Origin: Natrinema hispanicum
GTDB lineage: Archaea > Halobacteriota > Halobacteria > Halobacteriales > Natrialbaceae
Assembly (NCBI RefSeq): GCF_900111485.1
Contig: NZ_FOIC01000025.1
Coordinates: 1 to 38,316 of the forward strand
Direction: 5' to 3'
Length of the DNA: 38,316 bases
Shown: one piece after another, positions 2,083 through 14,793 of the stretch
How the letters are laid out: each line of letters starts with the position of its first letter
How positions within the stretch are numbered: position 1 is the first letter of the stretch
Notes under the pieces: model-generated
The model's input: the letters and a program-made list of their open reading frames with translations, nothing else
Databases searched by the model: none
Told to the model about the DNA's origin: nothing
Program-made: the position numbers and the translations under genes

Positions 2083-2098
2083 TTTAGGCGCGCCTAAA
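2083..2098. promoter_or_regulatory. Iron-type operator box 1 (permease operon)
   Basis: This is a perfect 16-bp palindrome, TTTAGGCGCGCCTAAA, five bases before the ATG at 2104. ACTAAAAG just upstream sits where a TATA box for a leaderless transcript should be, so a bound repressor would cover the transcription start. The same TTTAGG-N4-CCTAAA pattern recurs six more times before genes in this window. It resembles the TTAGG/CCTAA sites of DtxR/IdeR-family metal-dependent repressors (Idr/SirR-type in haloarchaea). Confidence 0.85.
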
Positions 2099-2103
2099 CA
2101 CAG

Positions 2104-3213
2104 ATGGCAGAAACACAGTCGGTTAGTGGTCAGACACCCGCCCAGCAGCGAGCGGGATGGGTTACGGGGACGCTTATCCTCTTTTGTCTGGCGAGTACGA
2201 TCATCACCGCCATCGCTGGGCTTGTTCAGGTGAGTTTCGGAGAGTACTCGATGACGTTCCTCGAGGCCTGGCGGGCAGTGTTCAATCCTAACGTGATCTT
2301 GAATGTCACCGCGTGGTCAGCGTTTCTGTTCGGGACGGAGCTTCCGGAGATGAGTACCGCGAGCATCGTCGTGTGGGAACTCCGAGTACCGCGCGTGTTC
2401 GTGGGGATCATCACTGGGGCGACGCTTGCGGTCTCCGGTGCGATCTTCCAGGCCGTAACGCGCAACGAACTGGCGAGCCCCTTCGTGTTAGGAGTTAGCT
2501 CCGGCGCTGGGTTCGCCGTCTTGGCGACGCTGATCGTTTTCAGCGGGCTCGCGTCGGTGCTGCCACTCATCGCGACCCTGGGAGGTGCGGTTGCATTTAT
2601 CATCGTCTACACGATCGCTTGGAAGGGTGGCACGAGTCCCGTCCGTCTCGTTCTCGCCGGCGTCATCGTCAACATGGTCTTTCAATCACTCCAACAGGGG
2701 CTGTTCTTTTTCGCTGACGACCTCGGTGTCGTCCAGACGGCAGTCGCTTGGCTTACGGGATCACTGACGGGGACCGGCTGGGACGAGGTCAGAATCGCGA
2801 TCCTCCCAGCGCTCCTCTCGTGTGCAATCGCGATCGGTGGAGCGCGACAGCTAAACGTGTTGATGCTGGGCGAACGGACTGCCCGATCGCTCGGGATGCG
2901 CGTCGAACGGACTCGCTTTCTCCTCTCAGTCGTTGCCATTCTGGCTGCAAGCGCTGCGATCGCTGTCGCCGGGATTGTCAGCTTCTTCGGACTCGTCGTC
3001 CCGCATATCGTTCGAAATACCGTCGGCGGTGACTACCGACGGCTGATACTCGGTTGTCTCTTCGCCGGCCCTGCACTGATGGTCGTCGCCGACGTCGGTG
3101 CACGTCTCGCGCTGTCTGGCACCCAGCTTCCCGTCGGCGTTGTCACCGGACTCGTCGGCGGCCCATACTTCCTCTATCTGATGCGCAAGCAACAATCGAT
3201 GGGTGAATTATAA
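2104..3213 (+). CDS. FecCD-family iron/siderophore ABC permease
   Basis: This 369-residue integral membrane protein is the translocation channel of a type II (BtuCD-like) importer for an iron chelate. Hydrophobic segments are spread along the whole chain, as expected for about ten transmembrane helices. The family block RVPRVFVGIITGATLAVSG begins near residue 94 and continues into a stretch reading NELASPFVLG. The cytoplasmic coupling loop that contacts the ATPase is probably around GERTARSLGM (about 256-265). Only one permease gene is present, so the channel is probably a homodimer. The ATG at 2104 lies five bases after operator box 1, implying a leaderless mRNA. The stop overlaps the ATPase start (TAATG), so the two are translationally coupled. 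Substrate cannot be told from the sequence; iron is inferred from family and operator. Confidence 0.9.
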   Translation: MAETQSVSGQTPAQQRAGWVTGTLILFCLASTIITAIAGLVQVSFGEYSMTFLEAWRAVFNPNVILNVTAWSAFLFGTELPEMSTASIVVWELRVPRVFVGIITGATLAVSGAIFQAVTRNELASPFVLGVSSGAGFAVLATLIVFSGLASVLPLIATLGGAVAFIIVYTIAWKGGTSPVRLVLAGVIVNMVFQSLQQGLFFFADDLGVVQTAVAWLTGSLTGTGWDEVRIAILPALLSCAIAIGGARQLNVLMLGERTARSLGMRVERTRFLLSVVAILAASAAIAVAGIVSFFGLVVPHIVRNTVGGDYRRLILGCLFAGPALMVVADVGARLALSGTQLPVGVVTGLVGGPYFLYLMRKQQSMGEL

Positions 3214-4073
3214 TGGCACGCACACAGGACCACGAACGCGAACAGGACCGGATCACTGACGAGGACGGCGTTGCCATCGACAGCGCACTCGTCGGTGAGA
3301 ACCTCGAGTTGAGCTACCCGACGAGTGAGGAACCGATCGTCGACTGTGCACGCCTCGATATCCCCGAGGAGGCGGTGACCGCACTCGTCGGCCCGAACGG
3401 CAGCGGGAAGAGCACACTGCTGAAGGCGCTCTCGAACCACCTCGAGCCGGAGACGGGAACGGTCCGAATTCATGGCGACGACCTCGACTCGTTCAGTCAG
3501 AAAGCACTGGCGCGCGAACTAGGTGTCCTCTCACAGGAGAACGACTCGCTGGGCTCGATCTCCGTCGAAGATCTCGTCTATCACGGCCGGTACCCCCACC
3601 GTGGATTCTTCGACAGCGTCAGTGAAACGGATCGCGAGGCAGTCGAACGCGCGCTCGAGTTGGCGGGTATCGAACACCTCCGAAACGCCGAACTCGGGCA
3701 ACTGAGCGGTGGGCAAAAGCAACTGGTCTGGATTGCGATGGTGTTGGCACAGGACACCGATGTCCTATTGCTCGACGAGCCAACGACGTTTCTGGACGTT
3801 CACCACCAGTTTCGCGTCCTCGAGACGATCCGTCAGCTAAACGAACAGAAGGGGGTCACCGTCGCTGTGATACTCCACGATATCTCGCAGGCAGCGCGTT
3901 TCGCCGACTATCTGATCGCGATGTGTGACGGCGAACTCTACGACTGGGGGCCGCCCGAAGAGGTCGTCACCGAACAGTTGCTCGCCGACGTCTTCGGCAT
4001 CGAAGCGACCGTCAGGTACGAACCCGAACTACAGGTCCTCCCGAAGCGTTCGTTGCCGAATCGCCGGTTGTAG
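3213..4073 (+). CDS. FecE-type iron/siderophore ABC ATPase
   Basis: This 286-residue cytoplasmic ATPase powers the importer encoded by the preceding gene. All nucleotide-binding landmarks are present: Walker A GPNGSGKST (residues 60-68), signature LSGGQKQ (164-170), Walker B LLLDEPTTFLD (about 185-195, Asp188 and Glu189), and the switch histidine in LHDISQA (His222). An acidic N-terminal extension of about 25 residues precedes the core domain. The start overlaps the permease stop by one base. The gene ends 27 bp before the next operator box, so the binding-protein gene has its own promoter. It looks fully functional. ABC subfamily placement rests on gene context and the overall FepC/BtuD-like motif pattern. 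Confidence 0.92.
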   Translation: MARTQDHEREQDRITDEDGVAIDSALVGENLELSYPTSEEPIVDCARLDIPEEAVTALVGPNGSGKSTLLKALSNHLEPETGTVRIHGDDLDSFSQKALARELGVLSQENDSLGSISVEDLVYHGRYPHRGFFDSVSETDREAVERALELAGIEHLRNAELGQLSGGQKQLVWIAMVLAQDTDVLLLDEPTTFLDVHHQFRVLETIRQLNEQKGVTVAVILHDISQAARFADYLIAMCDGELYDWGPPEEVVTEQLLADVFGIEATVRYEPELQVLPKRSLPNRRL

Positions 4074-4100
4074 TGGCTCCGTTCGGAACGTTTTTGTATT

Positions 4101-4116
4101 TTTAGGCCAGCCTAAA
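4101..4116. promoter_or_regulatory. Iron-type operator box 2 (first binding protein)
   Basis: TTTAGGCCAGCCTAAA sits five bases before the ATG at 4122. Both six-base arms match box 1 exactly; only the four-base centre differs. A T-rich stretch (4091-4103) precedes it and probably holds the TATA element. Confidence 0.85.
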
Positions 4117-4121
4117 ATCTG

Positions 4122-5240
4122 ATGGAGACTGACGCGAGACGGACGAGACGCGGGGTACTGAAAACGGGGGCGGCAATCGCCGGACTCGGCATAACCGCCG
4201 GTTGCCTTGGTGATTCTGGGTCATCGAATGACAGAGCGGATGGAGAACACGGACATTCCGTTACCATGGAGCCCGTTGGTACCGTCGAGTTCGATACCGT
4301 CCCAGAACGGTGGGTACCCTACACAGGAGATTACGCCGACATGGGCGTTGCACTCGGGCAGGCTGATGGACTGGCTGGCATCGGCCTCCGGAGTCGGTTC
4401 GCCGCACACCACTACGACGAGTTGCCGGGCGTCTCGGTCGAGACCGACGAACTCACACAACTCTGGCAGGGCGGTACCGACCGCGAAACATTCTACACTA
4501 TCGATGCGGATGTCCACCTGATCGACCCCAACTTCATGATCAATCGACTCGGCTGGAGCCAGGACGACATCGACGGGATCGCGCGAAACGTCGCGCCGTT
4601 CGTCGGCAACACGATCTTTTCAGCCAGTTACGACTGGCACGACTATTCCCGCTACACGCTGTACGAAGCCTTCGAAAAGGTAGCCGCAGTGTTTCAGGAA
4701 CGGGAGCGCTATGAGGCGTTCGAACGACTCCACGAGGACGTCATCGCGAACGTGCAGTCACGACTACCTGACGAGCGGCCCACCGTTGCAGTGCTCGTTC
4801 CTGCGTCCCAACAACCAGAGGCGTTCTATCCGTACCTCATCGACGAGGGAACGCAATCCAAACACTGGAACGACCTCCGTGTCGAGGGTGCGCTGGCGAA
4901 AAACGGCATCGCCGACGCGCAAGCAACCGGCGGAACCATCGATTACGAGACGCTTCTCGAGATCGACCCCGACGTCATCGCGATCAGACAACAGGGAGCC
5001 GTCACCGACGCGGCGTTCGAGGACGGGATGGTTTCGTACCTGCGAACCCACGACACCGCGAGAAACCTCCGAGCGGTCCAGAACGATCGCGTCGTCTACG
5101 GCGGGATGACCTACCAGGGACCGATTATCCATCTCTTCCAGCTCGAGCGGGCCGCACAGGGAATCTATCCTGACGAGTTCGGCGACGAGGAGCTGTTCGA
5201 CCGACAGGCGGTCGCTGACATCGTCACTGGCACGTTTTAG
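4122..5240 (+). CDS. Iron-chelate-binding lipoprotein (FecB-like), copy 1
   Basis: This 372-residue exported protein binds the iron compound outside the cell and delivers it to the permease. The N-terminus carries a twin-arginine motif (RR at 9-10), a hydrophobic stretch and a lipobox ending ITAGC, giving Cys28 as the lipidated residue. The mature part has the two-lobe layout of class III binding proteins, with segments such as ERWVPYTGDYADMGVALG and DPDVIAIRQQ that match PF01497-type proteins. It is closely related to the next gene along its whole length (for example both have YEAFEK, ERYEAF and IDYETLLEIDP-like blocks), so the pair arose by duplication. It has its own operator (box 2) and probably its own promoter. 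Confidence 0.88.
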   Translation: METDARRTRRGVLKTGAAIAGLGITAGCLGDSGSSNDRADGEHGHSVTMEPVGTVEFDTVPERWVPYTGDYADMGVALGQADGLAGIGLRSRFAAHHYDELPGVSVETDELTQLWQGGTDRETFYTIDADVHLIDPNFMINRLGWSQDDIDGIARNVAPFVGNTIFSASYDWHDYSRYTLYEAFEKVAAVFQERERYEAFERLHEDVIANVQSRLPDERPTVAVLVPASQQPEAFYPYLIDEGTQSKHWNDLRVEGALAKNGIADAQATGGTIDYETLLEIDPDVIAIRQQGAVTDAAFEDGMVSYLRTHDTARNLRAVQNDRVVYGGMTYQGPIIHLFQLERAAQGIYPDEFGDEELFDRQAVADIVTGTF

Positions 5241-5277
5241 GACAAACGATCGCCTGGCTTCGAAACGCTTTTCAATT

Positions 5278-5293
5278 TTTAGGTTAGCCTAAA
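5278..5293. promoter_or_regulatory. Iron-type operator box 3 (second binding protein)
   Basis: TTTAGGTTAGCCTAAA sits five bases before the ATG at 5299, the same spacing as boxes 1 and 2. A T-rich run (TTCAATTTTT, 5271-5280) overlaps its left arm and may be the TATA region. Confidence 0.85.
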
Positions 5294-5298
5294 AGCTG

Positions 5299-6408
5299 AT
5301 GAACGGAGAAAACAGTTGGACGAGACGAAACGTACTTCGAACGAGTGGAGTTGTCGCTGGCGTGAGTACAATGGCCGGCTGCATCGGCGGGAGCGGAACG
5401 TCAGACGACGACGCTGCGTACACGGTGTCGATGCCGCCAGTCGGCGAAGTTGAGTTTGACAGCGTCCCGAAGAAATGGGCGGCCAATAATGGTAGCTGGG
5501 CCGATATGGGGATTGCACTGGGTCAGGAGCCGCCCGAAGCCCTGTATCTCGCCAGTCGCTATCACACGCAGTACTACGACGATATTCCTGGCGTGAGCGT
5601 GGATAAAAGCGATATGACATCGCTCTGGGAAGGAGAACTGAATCCGGAGGAATTCCTCGAGTTGAGCGAGAGCGTCGACCTCTTCGTCAATGATCCGAAC
5701 TTCATCCTCGGTCGAACCGACAGCTGGGCCCAGGAGGATATCGACCGAATCGAAGCGACGGGGACGCCTTTCTTCGGTAACAACATCTTTTCGACCGGCT
5801 ACGGGTGGCACGACTACGACTACCTCTCGCTGTACGAAGCCTTCGAGAAGCTGGCGCAGGTCTTTCAGGAAACGGAGCGATACGAGGCCTTCGCGAGCCT
5901 CCATGACGAGTTCCAGTCGAACGTCACTGATATTGTCCCACCGGAGAGCCAGCGACCGAGCGTCGCCATCATGTGGGCCACCGAAAGCGATATGGGATCG
6001 TTCTCGCCGTACCTGATCGGCGAAGGAACGAGTTTCAAGCAGTGGCGTGACCTCAAGGTCACGGACGCGTTCGCCAATACAGACGTGCGAGACTTCCACA
6101 ACACGCGTGGTTCAGTCGACTACGAGACACTGCTCGAGATCGATCCAGAGATTATTCTGTTCCGCGGACAAGAATCGAAGACCGCCGAGGAGTTTCAGAA
6201 CGCGATCGTCTCCCAGATGAAAAACGACAGTGTCGCCAGCGAGCTAACGGCCGTCCAGAACGGCGATGTCTACCGAGGTGGGCCGCTTTATCAGGGCCCA
6301 ATTACGAACCTCGTTGTGACCGAGCGGGCAGCCAAACAAATCTATGACATTGAGGTGGACCTCTACGACCGGACGGAAGTTAGCGACATCGTCAACGGCG
6401 ACTACTAG
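5299..6408 (+). CDS. Iron-chelate-binding lipoprotein (FecB-like), copy 2
   Basis: This 369-residue paralogue of the preceding gene has the same architecture: twin arginines at 9-10, a lipobox ending TMAGC with Cys28 lipidated, then a two-lobe iron-chelate binding domain. Shared blocks with copy 1 include GLY/WHDY, LYEAFEK, ERYEAF and DYETLLEIDP, while the presumed ligand-contact regions between them differ (for example SRYHTQYYDD here against SRFAAHHYDE). The two probably serve the same permease with different or overlapping substrates, since no second permease is present. It is transcribed separately behind operator box 3. Confidence 0.88.
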   Translation: MNGENSWTRRNVLRTSGVVAGVSTMAGCIGGSGTSDDDAAYTVSMPPVGEVEFDSVPKKWAANNGSWADMGIALGQEPPEALYLASRYHTQYYDDIPGVSVDKSDMTSLWEGELNPEEFLELSESVDLFVNDPNFILGRTDSWAQEDIDRIEATGTPFFGNNIFSTGYGWHDYDYLSLYEAFEKLAQVFQETERYEAFASLHDEFQSNVTDIVPPESQRPSVAIMWATESDMGSFSPYLIGEGTSFKQWRDLKVTDAFANTDVRDFHNTRGSVDYETLLEIDPEIILFRGQESKTAEEFQNAIVSQMKNDSVASELTAVQNGDVYRGGPLYQGPITNLVVTERAAKQIYDIEVDLYDRTEVSDIVNGDY

Positions 6409-6570: not shown

Positions 6571-6586
6571 TTTTGGCTGGCCTAAA
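6571..6586. promoter_or_regulatory. Iron-type operator box 4 (degenerate, distal)
   Basis: TTTTGGCTGGCCTAAA differs from the consensus at one arm position (TTTTGG for TTTAGG). It lies 18 bp upstream of box 5, so the 824-residue protein gene has tandem sites. Confidence 0.6.
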
Positions 6587-6604: not shown

Positions 6605-6620
6605 TTTAGGCGAGCCTAAA
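6605..6620. promoter_or_regulatory. Iron-type operator box 5 (cupredoxin lipoprotein)
   Basis: TTTAGGCGAGCCTAAA ends four bases before the ATG at 6625. Both arms match the consensus exactly. Confidence 0.85.
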
Positions 6621-6624
6621 AAAT

Positions 6625-9099
6625 ATGCGATCAAGCAGACGGGAGCTATTGGCAGCGAGTACGGCCGCAATTGCAGCTGGACTTGCCGGCTGTAGCGCTT
6701 CGGGAGAGGATGGGGACAACACGACAAAAACAGCCTCACAGGGAACCGACGAGGCAGAGACGGCCGCGTCAGTGAATGCGGCTGTCAGCGCAGAGTGGAA
6801 CGCGATGCGCGCCCGTGTCTGGGATTCCCTTTCGCTGGGCGTCGCCGATGAAACGGGTGCTGGCGCATCGGTCGCTCAGCAGACGTTTGCCCGGTTCGAG
6901 CAAGCCTCCGGGGAGTACGGTGCTCACGAGATGCTCGAGGCGACGAGTGAATCGAACTACGAAGCGTTCGAGGAAGCGCTGGATGAGCTCCGAACGGCAG
7001 GACTCCAGGCCGGAAACATCAGTCGCGCTCGCGAGGAGACAGCTATCGCGAGCACGCAACTCGCCGAGGTCCAGCAGGCACTCGCTGGCGAGACGACGGC
7101 ACAGCTACTCGATCTGCAGTTGTTCGGGGTTACCATCCAGAACGCCGCGTTCCTCGCGGCCTCGGGGAACTTCGAGGCGGCACAAACCACCGCAGCAAAC
7201 GTCCTGAGTCGTTTCGAAGAGGCGCCGGTTCACGATGCACTCCCATCGGCCGACAGTGAAGCCTACGCTACGTTCGAGAGCGCTGTCGCGGCGGTCGAAT
7301 CGGCTGCTGGGAACGAGAATAGCGAGAGTGTCCAGAAAAACGCCAATGAGGCGTTCGAGGCGGCGATCGATGGCAGCTACGCGATTGCTGACAACGAGTC
7401 CGCTGCGGGTGCGGGGCATATGGCAGCGCTCCAGGCCCAGGGCTGGGATGCGGCGGCACTCGCATCGATGGGTGGCCCCTCTTCGTCGTTCGCACACGCT
7501 GCCGCATTGAATATCTATCGCGCCCGCGCGTACGACTGCCAGTGGCTCGCTGCTCGTGGCGAGACCGACCGGGCTGCGACGATGGCGAGCGACATTTTCG
7601 CCCACTTCGAAGGCGCACGAGCACACGAAGCACTCGAAGAAGCCGACGGTGACGCCTACGAAGGCTTCGAAGCCGGACTCTCGGATCTCCAGTCCGCGAT
7701 CAAGAACGGAAACGCGTCCGATATCGACGCTGCTGTCGAAACGGTTGATTCGAATCTTGTGGCCGGGATCGAGGCACTCGCCGGCGCGAACGCACCGCTT
7801 CTCGAGGCAGCGTTCTTCCGAGCACGGTTCGATGACGCCCGTGAACTGTATCGCTTGGGTCAGAATACCGTCGCTGCCTCGATCGCAGAGGACCTCTTCG
7901 AGCGGTTCGAACAAAACGAACTCGAGGTTCACGAGACGGTCGAGTCGACCAGCGAGGATCTCTACACCCAATTCGAGGAAGAGCATCTCAGCGGTCTGAT
8001 CGACGCGTTCAAGAACACGAACGACTCCGGTGTCGAAACCCATTACGAGGGAGTCCAGTCGACGCTACTGGAGTTCGAAACGATGGCCGGCAGCACCGCA
8101 ACGGTGAGCGGTGCCGAGGGTGGCTACATGGCCGCTCGCGGCTTCGACGCAGCCGTCCTCGATACGCTTGGAAATGACAGTCGAGCACAGGCGATCGCTC
8201 AGGACGCGTTCGAACACTTCGAGTCCGGCGCGGGCGGCTACCACGAGGCGCTCGAGGAGGCGGACGAATCGACCTACGAGACGTTCGAAGAACGACTCGG
8301 CGGGATCTCCACGGCTGCCAGCAACGGCGACGACGTGTATCCTGTCACAAAGCAGTTCAACGCGGAGGCGCTGGCGTCGGTTTACGCCATCGTCAGCAGC
8401 AGTGGTGGCTCACACACCGAGGCTGCCGCGGCCGTAATGCAGGACGTGTTCGGTCACTTCGAGGAGGCTCGCGTCCACGAACTGATCGAGGAGGCCGATC
8501 ACAACGCCTACGAAACCTTCGAGGCACAACTCGACGCCTACATCACTGCGCTCCAGGAGGACGGCGACATTGGTGGGGCAGCTGAGTCGTTCGCAAACGC
8601 CTCGCAGTACGCGCAATTCGCACTCGTCGACAGCGTCGAAAAGCTCCCTCTCGATCTCGACCTAGCCGGAGCATCGGGCGGCTCACACTCGCACTCCCAC
8701 TCGGACGACGGTCATGGTAGTAACGCAGACCTCCAAGGCGGTCCAAACGTTGTCGAAGGTGTCCCCGAGAACGCTGATCACGTCATCGACATGACTGCCG
8801 TCGCATACGAGCCGGCAGAGATCACGGTCTCGAAAGGTGACAAGGTGGCCTGGACCTACGCGAGTGGCGAAGCGCACTCCGTGACCGCGTATGAGGACAA
8901 GATTCCCGACAGCGCCGGATACTGGGCGTCGGGTGGCTTCGACTCGCAGTCCGCAGCAGAGACCGGCTGGGAGAACGGGAAGGGTGCCGTCCAACCCGGT
9001 CAGTCATACGTTCACACCTTCGAGGCGACGGGGACACACGAATATTACTGTATTCCCCACGAAGCCGCTGGGATGGTCGGGAAAGTCATCGTCGAATAG
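6625..9099 (+). CDS. Six-repeat lipoprotein with C-terminal cupredoxin domain (DUF5059-like)
   Basis: An 824-residue exported lipoprotein. SSRRELL is a twin-arginine motif and GLAGC places lipidated Cys23. Residues of about 40-680 consist of six related helical repeats, each with an aromatic F-x-x/H-F-E motif followed by a histidine-centred motif (HEMLE at 101, HDALP at 203, HEALE at 334, HETVE at 436, HEALE at 540, HELIE at 618) and then AYETFE-like residues. A Ser/His-rich linker (about 684-697) leads to a halocyanin-like cupredoxin (about 715-824). Its type 1 copper ligands are visible: His751, Cys809, His812 and Met817. The whole resembles what I recall as the haloarchaeal DUF5059 family; that name is from memory. 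Behind two iron-type operators, it probably handles iron or electrons at the cell surface, but the reaction is unknown. Confidence 0.8.
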   Translation: MRSSRRELLAASTAAIAAGLAGCSASGEDGDNTTKTASQGTDEAETAASVNAAVSAEWNAMRARVWDSLSLGVADETGAGASVAQQTFARFEQASGEYGAHEMLEATSESNYEAFEEALDELRTAGLQAGNISRAREETAIASTQLAEVQQALAGETTAQLLDLQLFGVTIQNAAFLAASGNFEAAQTTAANVLSRFEEAPVHDALPSADSEAYATFESAVAAVESAAGNENSESVQKNANEAFEAAIDGSYAIADNESAAGAGHMAALQAQGWDAAALASMGGPSSSFAHAAALNIYRARAYDCQWLAARGETDRAATMASDIFAHFEGARAHEALEEADGDAYEGFEAGLSDLQSAIKNGNASDIDAAVETVDSNLVAGIEALAGANAPLLEAAFFRARFDDARELYRLGQNTVAASIAEDLFERFEQNELEVHETVESTSEDLYTQFEEEHLSGLIDAFKNTNDSGVETHYEGVQSTLLEFETMAGSTATVSGAEGGYMAARGFDAAVLDTLGNDSRAQAIAQDAFEHFESGAGGYHEALEEADESTYETFEERLGGISTAASNGDDVYPVTKQFNAEALASVYAIVSSSGGSHTEAAAAVMQDVFGHFEEARVHELIEEADHNAYETFEAQLDAYITALQEDGDIGGAAESFANASQYAQFALVDSVEKLPLDLDLAGASGGSHSHSHSDDGHGSNADLQGGPNVVEGVPENADHVIDMTAVAYEPAEITVSKGDKVAWTYASGEAHSVTAYEDKIPDSAGYWASGGFDSQSAAETGWENGKGAVQPGQSYVHTFEATGTHEYYCIPHEAAGMVGKVIVE

Positions 9100-9159: not shown

Positions 9160-9249
9160 ACGACGAAGGAGTGCCCCTCGTGTGGGTTTGAATGTGACCG
9201 CGACGCAAACGCGGCGATAAACGTCCTCAGTGCGGTTTTTCTGAATTAG
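9160..9249 (+). pseudogene. C-terminal remnant of a TnpB (IS200/IS605) protein
   Basis: An open stretch of 29 codons reads TTKECPSCGFECDRDANAAI and ends in TAG. CPSCG plus CDRDANAA is the zinc-ribbon and final RuvC-aspartate region of TnpB. No upstream part of the protein is present, and the following 170 bp contain only scraps of the usual TnpB tail (PVETALPTDT-like and VVEAG-like in shifted frames). It directly abuts the 3' end of a broken CBS-domain gene on the other strand. Confidence 0.7.
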
Positions 9250-10294: not shown

Positions 10295-11509
10295 TCACCG
10301 GTCCCACTGGCGATAGCCAACGAGGCCAACACTGAGGAGGCCGATAAGAACGAGACTGACGCCTGTAAACGGAAGGCCACCGAACCCACCAGCTGCGGTG
10401 ATCGACTGTTCACCGTTGGTACTGGTTTGAGACTTCGTTGCAGTCGATTCCGTAACCTCGACGGTTTGGCTCGTCTGCGCTGTGCGGTCGCCGACCGTGT
10501 ACGTCGCCTCGAGCTCAGCAGTCCCGACCAGTGCATTGGTGGCCGGAATCGTCACTGTCTCAGCAGACGCTGCGTCGACAGTCCCGATCGTCGCATCCGG
10601 CAACTGAGTGTCGCCTCCTTGCCCCGAAATCGATACATCGCTAACTGGGGCGTTCCCCTGATTGGTGACTCGGTACTGAAGCACTGTCGATCCGTTTTGC
10701 TCGAGGACTGAGGCGTACAGACCGACGTCTTCGCGTAACGGTTCGACTTGAATCGACCGAGTGGCCGTTACTTGACTTCCACTATTGTACGCCAACGTCG
10801 CCTCGAGGCTGTTAGAACCGATTTTCTCAGGCTGGACGTTGAAATCGAAGGTCGTCATATTTCCAGCACCGAGCGTCGGACGAACCCGCGTTGGGTCTTC
10901 GACAGTTCCGTTGCCCTCGAGCCGGAGCACGAGATCAGTCAACGCGTTGTCGTCGCCGTTCGAGACCGTTACTGTGGCCGGGACGTCGGACCCAGCGACT
11001 GCACGGTCAGTACTGATCTGCAGCTGTGGTTCCGTCACTGGATTGGACGAAGGTTCAGAGACGCTGACGTAGACGGGCCGCTTGATAACACCGATCTTCT
11101 GCGTACTCCCGTCTGCATCTGTTCTGATTCCGCGTACTTTCACCATCAAGCGCTTTTCGCCCGCGGTGTCGAACGTCGTCTGAAGCGGGACATCGATACT
11201 TTCCCCGGCTGCGATGACGCCGAGGTCGCCCGCTTCGTCGACCCGTCCCTGATCAGGAGCCGTTAGAATAACCTGCGTGATCTCGAATCCCCCGTCTTGC
11301 TGACTCGAGAGGCTGACTGTCGGCGTGACTGTGACAGCCTCACCAGTTGTCGGTTCGTCGTTCGAAACTGTAACGTCGGAAACGGTGACGTAGATATCCG
11401 ATGACGACGCGGTAGTGAGTCCGACTCCGGCAAGTAGCGAACAACAGAGTATACCGACGACAAATACCACACGTAGCTGTGCTAACCCGTATCGCTCTGA
11501 TTGTGACAT
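10295..11509 (-). CDS. Secreted CARDB-like surface protein with LPFTG C-terminus
   Basis: A 404-residue exported protein. Residues of about 12-35 form a hydrophobic signal (VVFVVGILCCSLLAGVGL) ending in small residues. The body is beta-rich and made of two or three CARDB/NPCBM-type immunoglobulin-like domains (VTVSNDEPTTGEAVTVTPT, VTVSNGDDNALTDLVLRLEG, YRVTNQGNAPVSDVSISGQG). A Thr/Ser-rich linker precedes LPFTG (379-383), a hydrophobic helix and a charged tail ending YRQWDR. That tail has the form of a sortase sorting signal, though it may simply anchor the protein by its membrane helix. ATG at 11509 is six bases from operator box 6, with box 7 farther out, so it belongs to the same regulon as the importer. 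Its ligand and function are unknown. Confidence 0.75.
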   Translation of the reverse strand: MSQSERYGLAQLRVVFVVGILCCSLLAGVGLTTASSSDIYVTVSDVTVSNDEPTTGEAVTVTPTVSLSSQQDGGFEITQVILTAPDQGRVDEAGDLGVIAAGESIDVPLQTTFDTAGEKRLMVKVRGIRTDADGSTQKIGVIKRPVYVSVSEPSSNPVTEPQLQISTDRAVAGSDVPATVTVSNGDDNALTDLVLRLEGNGTVEDPTRVRPTLGAGNMTTFDFNVQPEKIGSNSLEATLAYNSGSQVTATRSIQVEPLREDVGLYASVLEQNGSTVLQYRVTNQGNAPVSDVSISGQGGDTQLPDATIGTVDAASAETVTIPATNALVGTAELEATYTVGDRTAQTSQTVEVTESTATKSQTSTNGEQSITAAGGFGGLPFTGVSLVLIGLLSVGLVGYRQWDR

Positions 11510-11515
11510 GCAAGA

Positions 11516-11531
11516 TTTAGGCTCGCCTAAA
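11516..11531. promoter_or_regulatory. Iron-type operator box 6 (LPFTG protein)
   Basis: TTTAGGCTCGCCTAAA lies six bases upstream of the minus-strand ATG at 11509. Both arms are perfect. Confidence 0.85.
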
Positions 11532-11549: not shown

Positions 11550-11565
11550 TTTAGGTCGGCCTAAA
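11550..11565. promoter_or_regulatory. Iron-type operator box 7 (LPFTG protein, distal)
   Basis: TTTAGGTCGGCCTAAA is 18 bp upstream of box 6. The 34-bp centre spacing equals that of boxes 4 and 5, so the tandem arrangement is conserved between the two large surface-protein genes. The TATA element is probably AATTAAT-like sequence (about 11533-11540, read on the minus strand) between the two boxes. Confidence 0.85.
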
Positions 11566-11790: not shown

Positions 11791-14700
11791 ATGACAGGTT
11801 CCGCGTTGACCGAGGGTCTTCGGAAAACGCTTGCGTGCTTCGATAGCACCGGGGAACCGCGGACGACAACCGAGGTGGCGGATCAGCTCGATCTCGGCCG
11901 GCGGAGCACCTACGAGCGCTTAGAACGGCTCGTTGAGCACGACCGGATCAAGACCAAAAAGGTCGGTGCAAGTGCCCGTGTCTGGTGGCTGCCACCGTCA
12001 GCGGCCAATCGATCGACCAGTGATCGAGAGCCACCGCCCGGTGCCGAGTTCCCGGTCAGCGACGTGCTCGACGACGCCGAAATCGGGCTGTTCGTTATCG
12101 ACGCAGATCTCGAGATAGCACAGCTCAACGAGACGGCCGAGCAATACTTTGGTCTCGAGCGCGAGCATGCACTCGGTCAGGATAAGCGCGACCTCATCAG
12201 GGATCAGCTTGCCCCAGCCGTCGCAGACAGCATGTCGTTTGCTGACACCGTGCTGGAGACCTACGAGGATAATACATACATCGAACAGTTCGAGTGTCGC
12301 GTCACGGCGAGTGAGAAACGACAGACGCGCTGGCTCGAGCACCAGAGCAAACCGATCGAATCCGGCACGCACGCCGGCGGGCGCATCGAACTCTACTACG
12401 ACATAACCGACCAGAAGCGCTCGGAGCGTGCCCGCCGTACGGAACGTGCCCTCCTCGAGCGCGTCCTCGAGTCCAGTCCGATAGGGATCGGCATCTTCGA
12501 CGCTGACGGCAAAGTACGCCGCGTAAATCAGCGATTCGCCGAGTACCTCGGATTGGGTGGGGACGATCCCACAACGTACGTGCTCGGCGACGTACCCTTA
12601 TTCGACGAGGATGGCGAAGAAATTCCGTACGCAGAGCGACCGGCAGCGCGAGTACTTGCGACCGGCGAGTCAGTCGCCGGTCAGCACATACAGGTCGACA
12701 GTGGCGATGGCCAAACACGATGGCTCTCCGCGAACGCCGAACCGCTCGACGACGGCGTCATCGTCACAACAGCCGACATTACGCAACTCAAAGCGCAGGC
12801 ACAGCGCCTCGAGCGCCAGCACGACGACCTCGAGGCCGAACTCGAAGCGGTGTTCGAGCGGATCGACGACGCGTTCTACGCGCTCGACGACGACCTGCGA
12901 TTCACCTACGTCAATGACCGTGCCGAAACACTGCTGGGCCACTCCGAGTCAGAACTCTTGGGCAGGAACATCTGGCAGGCGCTGTCCGTCCCCGACGATG
13001 ACCCACTCCGGGACCGATACGAGACAGCGCTGGCCACCCAGACCGCGACGAGTTTCGAACGCTACTCTGCGCCGCTCGACATCTGGGAGATCGTCAGCGT
13101 GTATCCCTCGGAGTCCGGCCTCTCGGTGTACGCGACCGACATCACCGAGCGCAAGCGACACGAGCGCCAGCTCCGCGAACGGGAGACTAGCCTCGAGCGA
13201 ACAACGGAGCTACTGGAGCAATCACAGCAACTGGCAAGCGTTGGTGCCTGGGAACTCGACCTGACCGACGACCCTCCAGACCTGCACTGGACCGACGAGG
13301 TCTACCGAATCTTCGAGCGCTCACCCGATCAGGGGGTCGATCTCGAGTGGGTACTGGACCATCTGCCGCCGGAGGACCGGGACCACCTCAACGAGGCCCT
13401 CGACCGTGCGATCGAGGACGGGGACGCCTACGATATCGAAAACCGGATTATCACGGCTGCTGGTGACCAGCGATGGATCCGAAGTATCGGTGAGCCAGTT
13501 CGAGACGACGGCGAAATCATCGCACTCCGCGGCGCGGCACAGGACATCACCGAGCGCAAAGAATACGAACAGGCCCTCGAGCGCCAGCGCGAGCAACTCG
13601 CTGCACTCAACAATCTCAACGACGTCGTTCGCAGTATCACCGATGAAGTCATCGACCAGTCCACACGCTCGGAGATCGAGCAAGTAGTTTGTGAGCGCCT
13701 CGCCGAGGCGGAGTCGTACCTGTTCGCGTGGATCGGGGATGTCGATATCGCTTCACAGACGGTGACTCTGCGAACGGAGGCCGGCGTCGAGGGCTATCTC
13801 GATGATATCACGATCTCTGCCGACCCAGACGACAAGCGCAGTCAAGGGCCGACAGGCCGGGCTATCCTTGAGCGCGAGATCCAGACGACACAGGATATCG
13901 AAGCCGATAGTAGACACGACCCTTGGCGCGACCATATCGAACAGTACGGCTTCCGCTCGTCGGCGGCGACCCCAATCATCTACGAGGACACCGTCTACGG
14001 AGTCTTGAACGTCTATGCCGACCGGCCGAACGCGTTCGAGGGCAAAGAGCGGGCAGTTATCAGTCAATTGGGCGAGGTGATCGGCCACGCGATTGCTGCC
14101 ACCGAGCGCAAGCGGGCATTGATGAGCGACGATGTCGTCGAACTCCAGTTCCGCATCCGTGACATCTTCGACGTCACGGGAGCTGATGCCCCAGCCGACG
14201 GCTCGATCAAAATTGACCATACAGTTCCCATCGAGAACGACGAATTCCTCGTCTACGGGACAGTCACTGAAGACGCTATTGAGAGTTTAGATGGACTCGT
14301 CGATGCACTCCCCCACTGGACTGCTGTCACCTACCGGACTACCGACGGGATGACGAACTTCGAACTTCGGCTCTCCGAACCGCCGGTGCTGTCGACGCTC
14401 GCCTCACTCGGTGGTGCCGTCAAGAGCGCTGTCATCGACGACAATGGCTATCAGATGACGCTTCACCTCGCGCCAGGTGCAGATATCCGACAGGTCATCG
14501 ACGCTGTCCAGACGACCTATCCGACCGCAGAGTTGCTAAAACACCGTCAGACCACGCGTCCTGACACCACCGCTGAACGTGTCCGTCACGTGCTCACGGA
14601 CGAACTCACCGACCGCCAGCGAGCTGCCCTCGATGCTGCCTATCACGCAGGCTTTTTCGAGTGGCCTCGCGATGCCTCCGGCGAGGAGATCGCCGACTCA

Positions 14701-14793
14701 CTCGAGATCGCGCCGGCGACGTTCCATCAACACCTCCGGCGTGCACAAAAGAAGATCTTCGAATCGCTACTCTCGAGGCCGACGACTGCCTGA
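11791..14793 (+). CDS. Bat-like multi-sensor transcriptional regulator (HTH-PAS-GAF-HTH_10)
   Basis: A 1000-residue cytoplasmic regulator. Residues of about 1-70 form a helix-turn-helix (TTEVADQLDLGRRSTYERLE). Four PAS-like domains follow at about 90-205, 215-335, 350-455 and 480-590, each ending in a DIT-E/D-R/K-K-like linker (for example ATDITERKRHE, AQDITERKEYE). A GAF domain lies at about 610-770 (FAWIGDV, GRAILER, SSAATPIIYEDTVYGVLNVY). Then comes the bacterio-opsin-activator domain and a C-terminal HTH_10 (LTDRQRAALDAAYHAGFFEW, then ATFHQHLRR). Proteins of this kind sense redox, light or small ligands and activate transcription. No histidine kinase domain is present. It is separately transcribed and divergent from the LPFTG gene with about 280 bp between starts; a link to iron control is possible but not shown. 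Confidence 0.88.
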   Translation: MTGSALTEGLRKTLACFDSTGEPRTTTEVADQLDLGRRSTYERLERLVEHDRIKTKKVGASARVWWLPPSAANRSTSDREPPPGAEFPVSDVLDDAEIGLFVIDADLEIAQLNETAEQYFGLEREHALGQDKRDLIRDQLAPAVADSMSFADTVLETYEDNTYIEQFECRVTASEKRQTRWLEHQSKPIESGTHAGGRIELYYDITDQKRSERARRTERALLERVLESSPIGIGIFDADGKVRRVNQRFAEYLGLGGDDPTTYVLGDVPLFDEDGEEIPYAERPAARVLATGESVAGQHIQVDSGDGQTRWLSANAEPLDDGVIVTTADITQLKAQAQRLERQHDDLEAELEAVFERIDDAFYALDDDLRFTYVNDRAETLLGHSESELLGRNIWQALSVPDDDPLRDRYETALATQTATSFERYSAPLDIWEIVSVYPSESGLSVYATDITERKRHERQLRERETSLERTTELLEQSQQLASVGAWELDLTDDPPDLHWTDEVYRIFERSPDQGVDLEWVLDHLPPEDRDHLNEALDRAIEDGDAYDIENRIITAAGDQRWIRSIGEPVRDDGEIIALRGAAQDITERKEYEQALERQREQLAALNNLNDVVRSITDEVIDQSTRSEIEQVVCERLAEAESYLFAWIGDVDIASQTVTLRTEAGVEGYLDDITISADPDDKRSQGPTGRAILEREIQTTQDIEADSRHDPWRDHIEQYGFRSSAATPIIYEDTVYGVLNVYADRPNAFEGKERAVISQLGEVIGHAIAATERKRALMSDDVVELQFRIRDIFDVTGADAPADGSIKIDHTVPIENDEFLVYGTVTEDAIESLDGLVDALPHWTAVTYRTTDGMTNFELRLSEPPVLSTLASLGGAVKSAVIDDNGYQMTLHLAPGADIRQVIDAVQTTYPTAELLKHRQTTRPDTTAERVRHVLTDELTDRQRAALDAAYHAGFFEWPRDASGEEIADSLEIAPATFHQHLRRAQKKIFESLLSRPTTA

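Follow-up and report, generated by a model that had tools for sequence, protein, structure and literature searches.

Among described iron systems, EfeO and EfeM of the EfeUOB ferrous-iron system are close to the protein studied here, being iron-regulated extracytoplasmic proteins that likewise bring together a cupredoxin and four-helix bundles. In EfeM, site III is made up of Tyr82, His126, Glu129, Glu189, and Asp190, and lies between four-helix bundles (PMC9174327). By family, the protein belongs with Pfam PF16502 (DUF5059) and the haloarchaeal halocyanins hcpE and hcpG (HVO_1228; HFX_RS06015), which it matches over its full length; H. mediterranei hcpG is listed with an identical DUF5059 and blue-copper architecture (PMC9240420). 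The published mentions of the family that we found are annotation or expression tables only, with none on function, repeats, ligand set, or operator. The sequence-only reading that we followed up knew of no reaction assigned to this architecture, and indeed it is catalogued (Pfam DUF5059; "hcpE"/"hcpG" halocyanins) with no function attached.

Iron acquisition in archaea is poorly understood, and the haloarchaea searched here are without oxidase-dependent Efe/FTR1 systems. A widespread lipoprotein that keeps its blue-copper centre intact, carries five invariant putative metal sites, and stands behind an iron-type operator in every homologue examined offers a testable candidate for an answer that evolved separately, and gives a domain of unknown function, DUF5059, a testable function in the genetically tractable H. 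volcanii (HVO_1228). New here are the anatomy of the repeat unit, the five-site ligand set, the iron-type operator before every examined homologue, and the absence of Efe components from the class.

The window—i.e. the whole stretch of Natrinema hispanicum DNA that was analyzed, 38,316 nucleotides of contig NZ_FOIC01000025.1—carries the gene in question:

6625..9099, + strand: DUF5059-plastocyanin lipoprotein gene, 824 aa (PF16502 and PF00127 matches)
6625..6693, + strand: Tat signal and lipobox, RR at residues 5-6 and LAGC with Cys23 (read from the sequence; RR and C invariant)

PF16502 covers residues 53-675 (E 2.4e-244, 813 bits against a cut-off of 25, profile positions 1-619 of 619) and PF00127 (plastocyanin/azurin) residues 721-824 (E 2.3e-16, 60.5 bits, cut-off 21.2). 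The family search with the entire protein returned DUF5059 and Copper-bind only. The call of a lipoprotein holds, since R5 and R6 of the twin-Arg signal and C23 of the LAGC lipobox are kept in 55/55 homologues. The protein would thus leave the cell folded, through Tat, and be lipid-anchored outside the membrane.

Iron-type operators before the DUF5059 gene and its neighbours

One palindrome is common to the DUF5059 gene and the adjacent siderophore-ABC genes:

2084..6408, + strand: siderophore-type ABC genes adjoining the DUF5059 gene (family matches, operators)
2104-3213, + strand: FecCD permease (operator at 2084)
3213-4073, + strand: siderophore-type ABC ATPase (family match)
4122-5240, + strand: first Peripla_BP_2 protein (operator at 4102)
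5299-6408, + strand: second Peripla_BP_2 protein (operator at 5279)
6572..6585, + strand: second, upstream operator of the DUF5059 gene, TTTGGCTGGCCTAA, one mismatch, 34 bp from the first (motif comparison)
6606..6619, + strand: promoter-proximal, DtxR-family-like iron-type operator TTAGGCGAGCCTAA, a perfect TTAGGN4CCTAA, 5 bp before the ATG

We take the site to be of the FerR type (DtxR family, FerR/SirR). Every unit of the ABC locus—the permease/ATPase pair and each of the separately encoded Peripla_BP_2 proteins—has an operator to itself, ~6 bp ahead of its start codon. TTAGGN4CCTAA stands before 59/59 DUF5059 homologues checked, 57 with a perfect copy and 2 with one mismatch, mostly within 25 bp upstream of the start codon, and in most homologues a second copy lies ~35 bp away from it, around -50 to -57. 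Perfect sites occur in only ~3% of random stretches, a null that was drawn from the same loci and hence includes real sites. The window holds six perfect sites plus one with one mismatch, against 0.26 expected, and the whole genome has 17 sites (six of them in the window) against 1 for the reversed control. The iron regulation first read from the sequence is strongly supported by the operator, which stands before all of these homologues and before the adjacent siderophore-ABC genes, and by published expression data on the Haloferax orthologue. An iron-loaded repressor would act at the operator pair, with iron scarcity turning the gene on.

Expression data from H. volcanii bear on the orthologue HVO_1228 (DUF5059), which is up 4.2 log2 on endA knock-down, with iucA, iucB, iucD, diaminobutyrate genes, and two Fe(III)-binding proteins rising alongside it (RNA-seq, PMC7714728). 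In a cas1 study it goes down, as do iucA and one Fe(III)-binding protein (PMC9051519). A proteome paper on iron starvation in H. volcanii, citing another study, ascribes a ferR regulon signal to fhu genes, and does not name HVO_1228 in its main text (PMC11349517).

DUF5059 is found above the family cut-off in 77/292 Halobacteria. The siderophore synthetase IucA/IucC is present in 31/77 DUF5059 carriers compared with 45/215 non-carriers (odds ratio 2.5, p 0.0014, uncorrected for phylogeny); it was not found in the N. hispanicum genome. No relative was found in viral contigs, and viral carriage was rejected on that search; a conserved operon or partner gene was rejected too, as the neighbours change between lineages and siderophore-ABC genes accompany the gene in only some.

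The co-regulation of the siderophore-type ABC genes, and their adjacency in the window, would fit a heme or ferric-siderophore receptor, with heme or chelated Fe(III) taken up by the bundles and handed to the FecCD-type transporter. Invariant His, Tyr, and Phe residues (see below) suit such a role, and a heme role has been weighed for the HxxE motif of imelysin (PMC3143127). We nevertheless regard this reading as very unlikely, given that the ABC adjacency is seen in few genomes only, that no heme-binding family is matched, and that the conserved set is rich in carboxylates, better suited to bare iron than to heme.

Repeat units and their conserved residues

DUF5059 consists of six related four-helix bundles of ~105 aa. 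All 15 pairs of repeat alignments match each other in profile-profile comparison (E 3e-11 to 5e-24), and the motifs follow in the order first-helix Asp, FxxFE, H-x3-E, and Y-x2-F-E. The units are as follows:

6772..7098, + strand: repeat 1, residues 50-158, with D67, E92, H101, E105, Y112, E116 (profile comparison, alignment, AF2)
7090..7386, + strand: repeat 2, residues 156-254, E198 kept, H203 and the E207 position variable (profile comparison, alignment)
7396..7464, + strand: displaced helix A of repeat 6, residues 258-280, D275 in 49/49 (AF2, short-form alignment)
7483..7788, + strand: repeat 3, residues 287-388, with D304, E329, H334, E338, Y345, E349 (alignment; single-repeat AF2)
7789..8094, + strand: repeat 4, residues 389-490, with D404, E429, H436, E440, Y447, E451 (alignment)
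8095..8406, + strand: repeat 5, residues 491-594, with D508, E533, H540, E544, Y551, E555 (alignment)
8410..8628, + strand: repeat 6, helices B-D, residues 596-668, with E613, H618, E622, Y629, E633 (alignment)

Across 28 repeat sequences (repeats 1, 3, 4, and 5 of seven species, paralogues about 26-40% identical), the invariant columns are D22, F43, F46, E47, H52, E56, Y63, F66, E67, and A76, and R19 is nearly so. Among 49 full-length homologues (minimum identity 40%), the set of Asp, Glu, His, Glu, Tyr, and Glu is kept in 48-49/49 in repeats 1, 3, 4, 5, and 6, and repeat 4 has two extra His, H454 and H473, that are fully conserved. Repeat 2 is degenerate, with the His present in 23/49 and a proline, P207, in the N. 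hispanicum protein. It has lost the conserved set, which leaves five ligand sites, not six. Thus, six related units stand as the sequence-only reading had them, and so does its pattern of a Phe/Glu motif followed by a His/Glu motif, which takes the form FxxFE then H-x3-E in five repeats and extends to the Asp and Y-x2-F-E; the full His/Glu set in all six units does not stand, repeat 2 being the exception.

The helix at residues 258-280 is best explained as the displaced first helix of repeat 6, because it carries the invariant Asp275 otherwise missing from that repeat and because of the junction seen in short forms. Six genomes have a form of ~500 aa in which exactly residues 286-596 of the long form (285-599 in one) are missing, i.e. 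repeats 3-5, so that helix 258-280 is joined directly to helix B of repeat 6. Repeat number therefore varies by whole units, being six or three, and the best reading of these alignments is that three whole repeats were inserted into, or deleted from, the A-B loop of the repeat 6 unit.

The helical domain has 68 invariant positions. Of these, 21 are acids (17 Glu and 4 Asp), 8 are His, and 6 are Tyr, whereas the bases come to 2 Arg and no Lys. Invariant acids without matching invariant cations are as expected where a metal supplies the charge, which favours metal over purely structural pairing. On a helical wheel, E47, H52, E56, and E67 all lie on the same flank of their helices, offset from the hydrophobic face by ~80-110 degrees, and the hydrophobic face of helix A has D22/R19 at its centre; these positions are compatible with one Glu3-His site and a buried ion pair, without proving either. 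That the repeats bind metal is our fairly confident expectation.

The central placement of D22/R19 is also what a structural polar network would predict. In such a network, buried hydrogen bonds among Glu, His, Tyr, Asp, and Arg would fix the kink at helices B, B', and C, and the protein would serve as an adhesin, or as a spacer or scaffold that displays the cupredoxin. The fold is generic, and the longest full-chain structural alignments are with scaffold proteins (catenin, vinculin). By contrast, invariant acids far outnumber invariant bases, an iron-type operator precedes the gene, and the same His/Glu set is frozen in five paralogues in which other positions have mostly drifted to ~30% identity, a constancy that structural networks seldom require; we find a purely structural role quite improbable.

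Predicted fold, copper domain, and comparison with known systems

From an 8-row alignment, AF2 predicts an all-helical domain with confidence, most blocks being above 90 pLDDT, and with five helices per unit (long A, B, short B', C, and D), and repeat 3 modelled singly from 28 rows reaches pLDDT 94.6 and pTM 0.87. Prediction of a single repeat and of the chain yields confident helices in most of the DUF5059 part, in keeping with the helical repeats proposed earlier. Compared with known structures, neither the whole model nor the single repeat matches anything beyond generic four-helix bundles (PsbQ, NarX, catenin/vinculin, cytochrome c'), and no E is below 0.001. No known fold could be assigned to the repeat (best Foldseek E 0.096; a VIA Z of 12.8 against a designed helical fusion is in the uninformative range), and its sequence profile against the PDB recovered, at E 0.013 or worse, one unrelated chain and otherwise nothing but designed helical proteins. 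As modelled, the repeat fold is a generic four-helix bundle.

SmbP binds metal through many surface His residues, rather than through one conserved Glu/His set. Like the repeats, SmbP (PDB 3u8v, PF16785) is an extracytoplasmic four-helix bundle of similar size, and repeat 2 aligns with it at Z 10.2 and rmsd 2.2 over 83/83 residues. The Pfam SMBP model finds 4 of the 28 repeats, with a best E of 1.4e-4; repeat 3 scores 17.7 bits (E 0.004), below the cut-off of 29.

This periplasmic metal-binding bundle, a weak neighbour in both structure and sequence, lends some weight to a surface sponge that buffers or stores iron or metals in general, without redox coupling; the cupredoxin would then carry electrons, or bind copper, on its own account. 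Multiple identical sites, and a repeat number that varies as whole units, point the same way. Against this, SmbP was not recovered by the repeat profile among PDB sequences at E up to 10. The copper domain bears on the same question:

8662..8739, + strand: His-rich linker HSHSHSDDGHG, residues 680-705, with the His-rich stretch at about 685-699 (from the sequence)
8770..9096, + strand: plastocyanin/halocyanin-type cupredoxin with type 1 Cu ligands H751, C809, H812, and M817 (family match, alignment)

By sequence, the C-terminal domain belongs with plastocyanin/halocyanin (TIGR02656, PF00127) and has all four type 1 ligands, differing from those proteins in its fusion to DUF5059 and its iron-type operator. 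The four ligands had been picked out from the letters, and H751, C809, H812, and M817 are each present in 49/49 full-length homologues. The His-rich linker, by contrast, does not survive as a feature of the family, where it is gapped or variable; it is peculiar to the N. hispanicum protein and near relatives. TIGR02656 is matched at 68 bits, below the NCBIfam equivalog cut-off of 87.85 bits. The nearest solved sequences are plastocyanins, with the match confined to the cupredoxin domain, and the domain is unmodelled in the 8-row AF2 run (pLDDT mostly below 50), though the sequence match there is clear.

The copper domain is fused in 55/55 homologues, with the Cys and both His ligands invariant, which suggests that the two halves of the protein act together and speaks against a sponge with an unconnected cupredoxin. 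The six short forms are split evenly among Met, Gln, and His as the axial ligand (2 each), which means that Met is replaced in 4/6, so redox tuning is not fixed, as a sponge would allow. On balance we consider the sponge unlikely. Electron transfer between copper and iron is itself a tentative proposal.

The comparison with EfeO made by the sequence-only reading holds as an analogy. The ligand types resemble those of EfeM site III, and that reading had also judged the repeats unrelated to EfeO, which agrees with the lack of any match between single repeats and the M75 model at E up to 10. The motif is H-x3-E here and H-x2-E in M75, and the protein is a lipoprotein with six bundles and a C-terminal plastocyanin-type cupredoxin rather than Cupredoxin_1. 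The M75 fold pairs two four-helix bundles, with HxxE where they meet; in structure comparisons, EfeM (7q1g) gives Z 7.0 over 109 residues and EfeO (7wgu) is in the Foldseek list, both in the generic-bundle range that is uninformative for helical bundles. Beyond analogy the comparison fails: M75/EfeO was found in 0/292 Halobacteria searched, and FTR1 in 0/292 by a search in which four control genomes gave matches. Because both are missing from all the Halobacteria searched, the DUF5059 lipoprotein does not belong to an Efe system; it may still function in the manner of EfeO/M.

The repeat-profile search over 247 genomes of the phylum returned haloarchaeal DUF5059 only, plus two chance matches (the tail of a DnaK, and a locus that on the matched strand encodes an MTA-phosphorylase-like protein). 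The N-terminal domain of FTR1, which bears a resemblance to the repeats, is a doubtful relative of them: FTR1 is missing from the 292 Halobacteria searched, and the profile found DUF5059 and the two chance matches only.

Proposed role at the cell surface and other operator-bearing genes

That the DUF5059 lipoprotein has a role in iron acquisition is likely, and it probably captures or oxidizes iron at the cell surface. Our preferred reading, with a probability of roughly 0.5, is that in iron-starved cells the protein binds iron at the surface, with Fe(II)/Fe(III) redox linked to its Cu. Under starvation, a repressor of the DtxR-family type would release the operator pair and the gene would come on; the lipoprotein, exported folded by Tat, would be held by its lipid outside the membrane. 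Each intact bundle (repeats 1, 3, 4, 5, and 6) would hold one iron ion, or a comparable metal in the divalent or trivalent state. The ligands would be one His and two or three Glu, located around the point where helices B, B', and C meet, and the Tyr and the Asp/Arg pair would lie close to the metal site. The type 1 Cu domain would exchange single electrons with the bound iron, most likely taking one from Fe(II) to give Fe(III), which could then pass either to a siderophore or to the FhuD-type binding proteins that share the regulation. Points against this reading are that HVO_1228 goes unnamed in the main text of PMC11349517, that no more than 31/77 carriers have IucA/IucC and N. hispanicum has none, and that no neighbouring partner gene is conserved. 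A stronger version, that haloarchaea, in which no genome searched has FTR1 or EfeO, evolved a surface iron-capture ferroxidase of their own, one lipoprotein in which five carboxylate/His sites, each within a four-helix bundle of its own, oxidize captured Fe(II), feed the electrons to a fused type 1 Cu, and pass the iron on as Fe(III), is a doubtful extension.

Other genes of the window, and a transposon remnant, are the following:

133-1902: IS1182-type transposase gene, upstream of the ABC locus
About 9171-9249, + strand: C-terminal remnant of TnpB (CPSCGFECDRDANAAINVLSAVFLN), directly 3' of the DUF5059 gene (DNA read by eye)
10295-11509, - strand: CARDB/Ig-type secreted protein, 404 aa, with a C-terminal membrane anchor (operators 11517-11530 and 11551-11564)
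11791-14793, + strand: PAS/GAF/BAT-type regulator, 1000 aa, with HTH_10 (bacterio-opsin activator-like)

The CARDB/Ig-type gene shares with the DUF5059 gene a double TTAGGN4CCTAA operator at 34 bp spacing. Its product is an uncharacterised, putatively iron-regulated surface protein, perhaps comparable to HVO_A0466, which sits beside an iron-starvation RND permease (PMC11349517). Elsewhere in the genome, operator sites adjoin an Fbp-type ABC ATPase, an extracellular solute-binding lipoprotein, and DUF7551/DUF7552 proteins, which suggests further iron-regulated genes of uncharacterised role, and one further site has a Dps/ferritin-family gene nearby.
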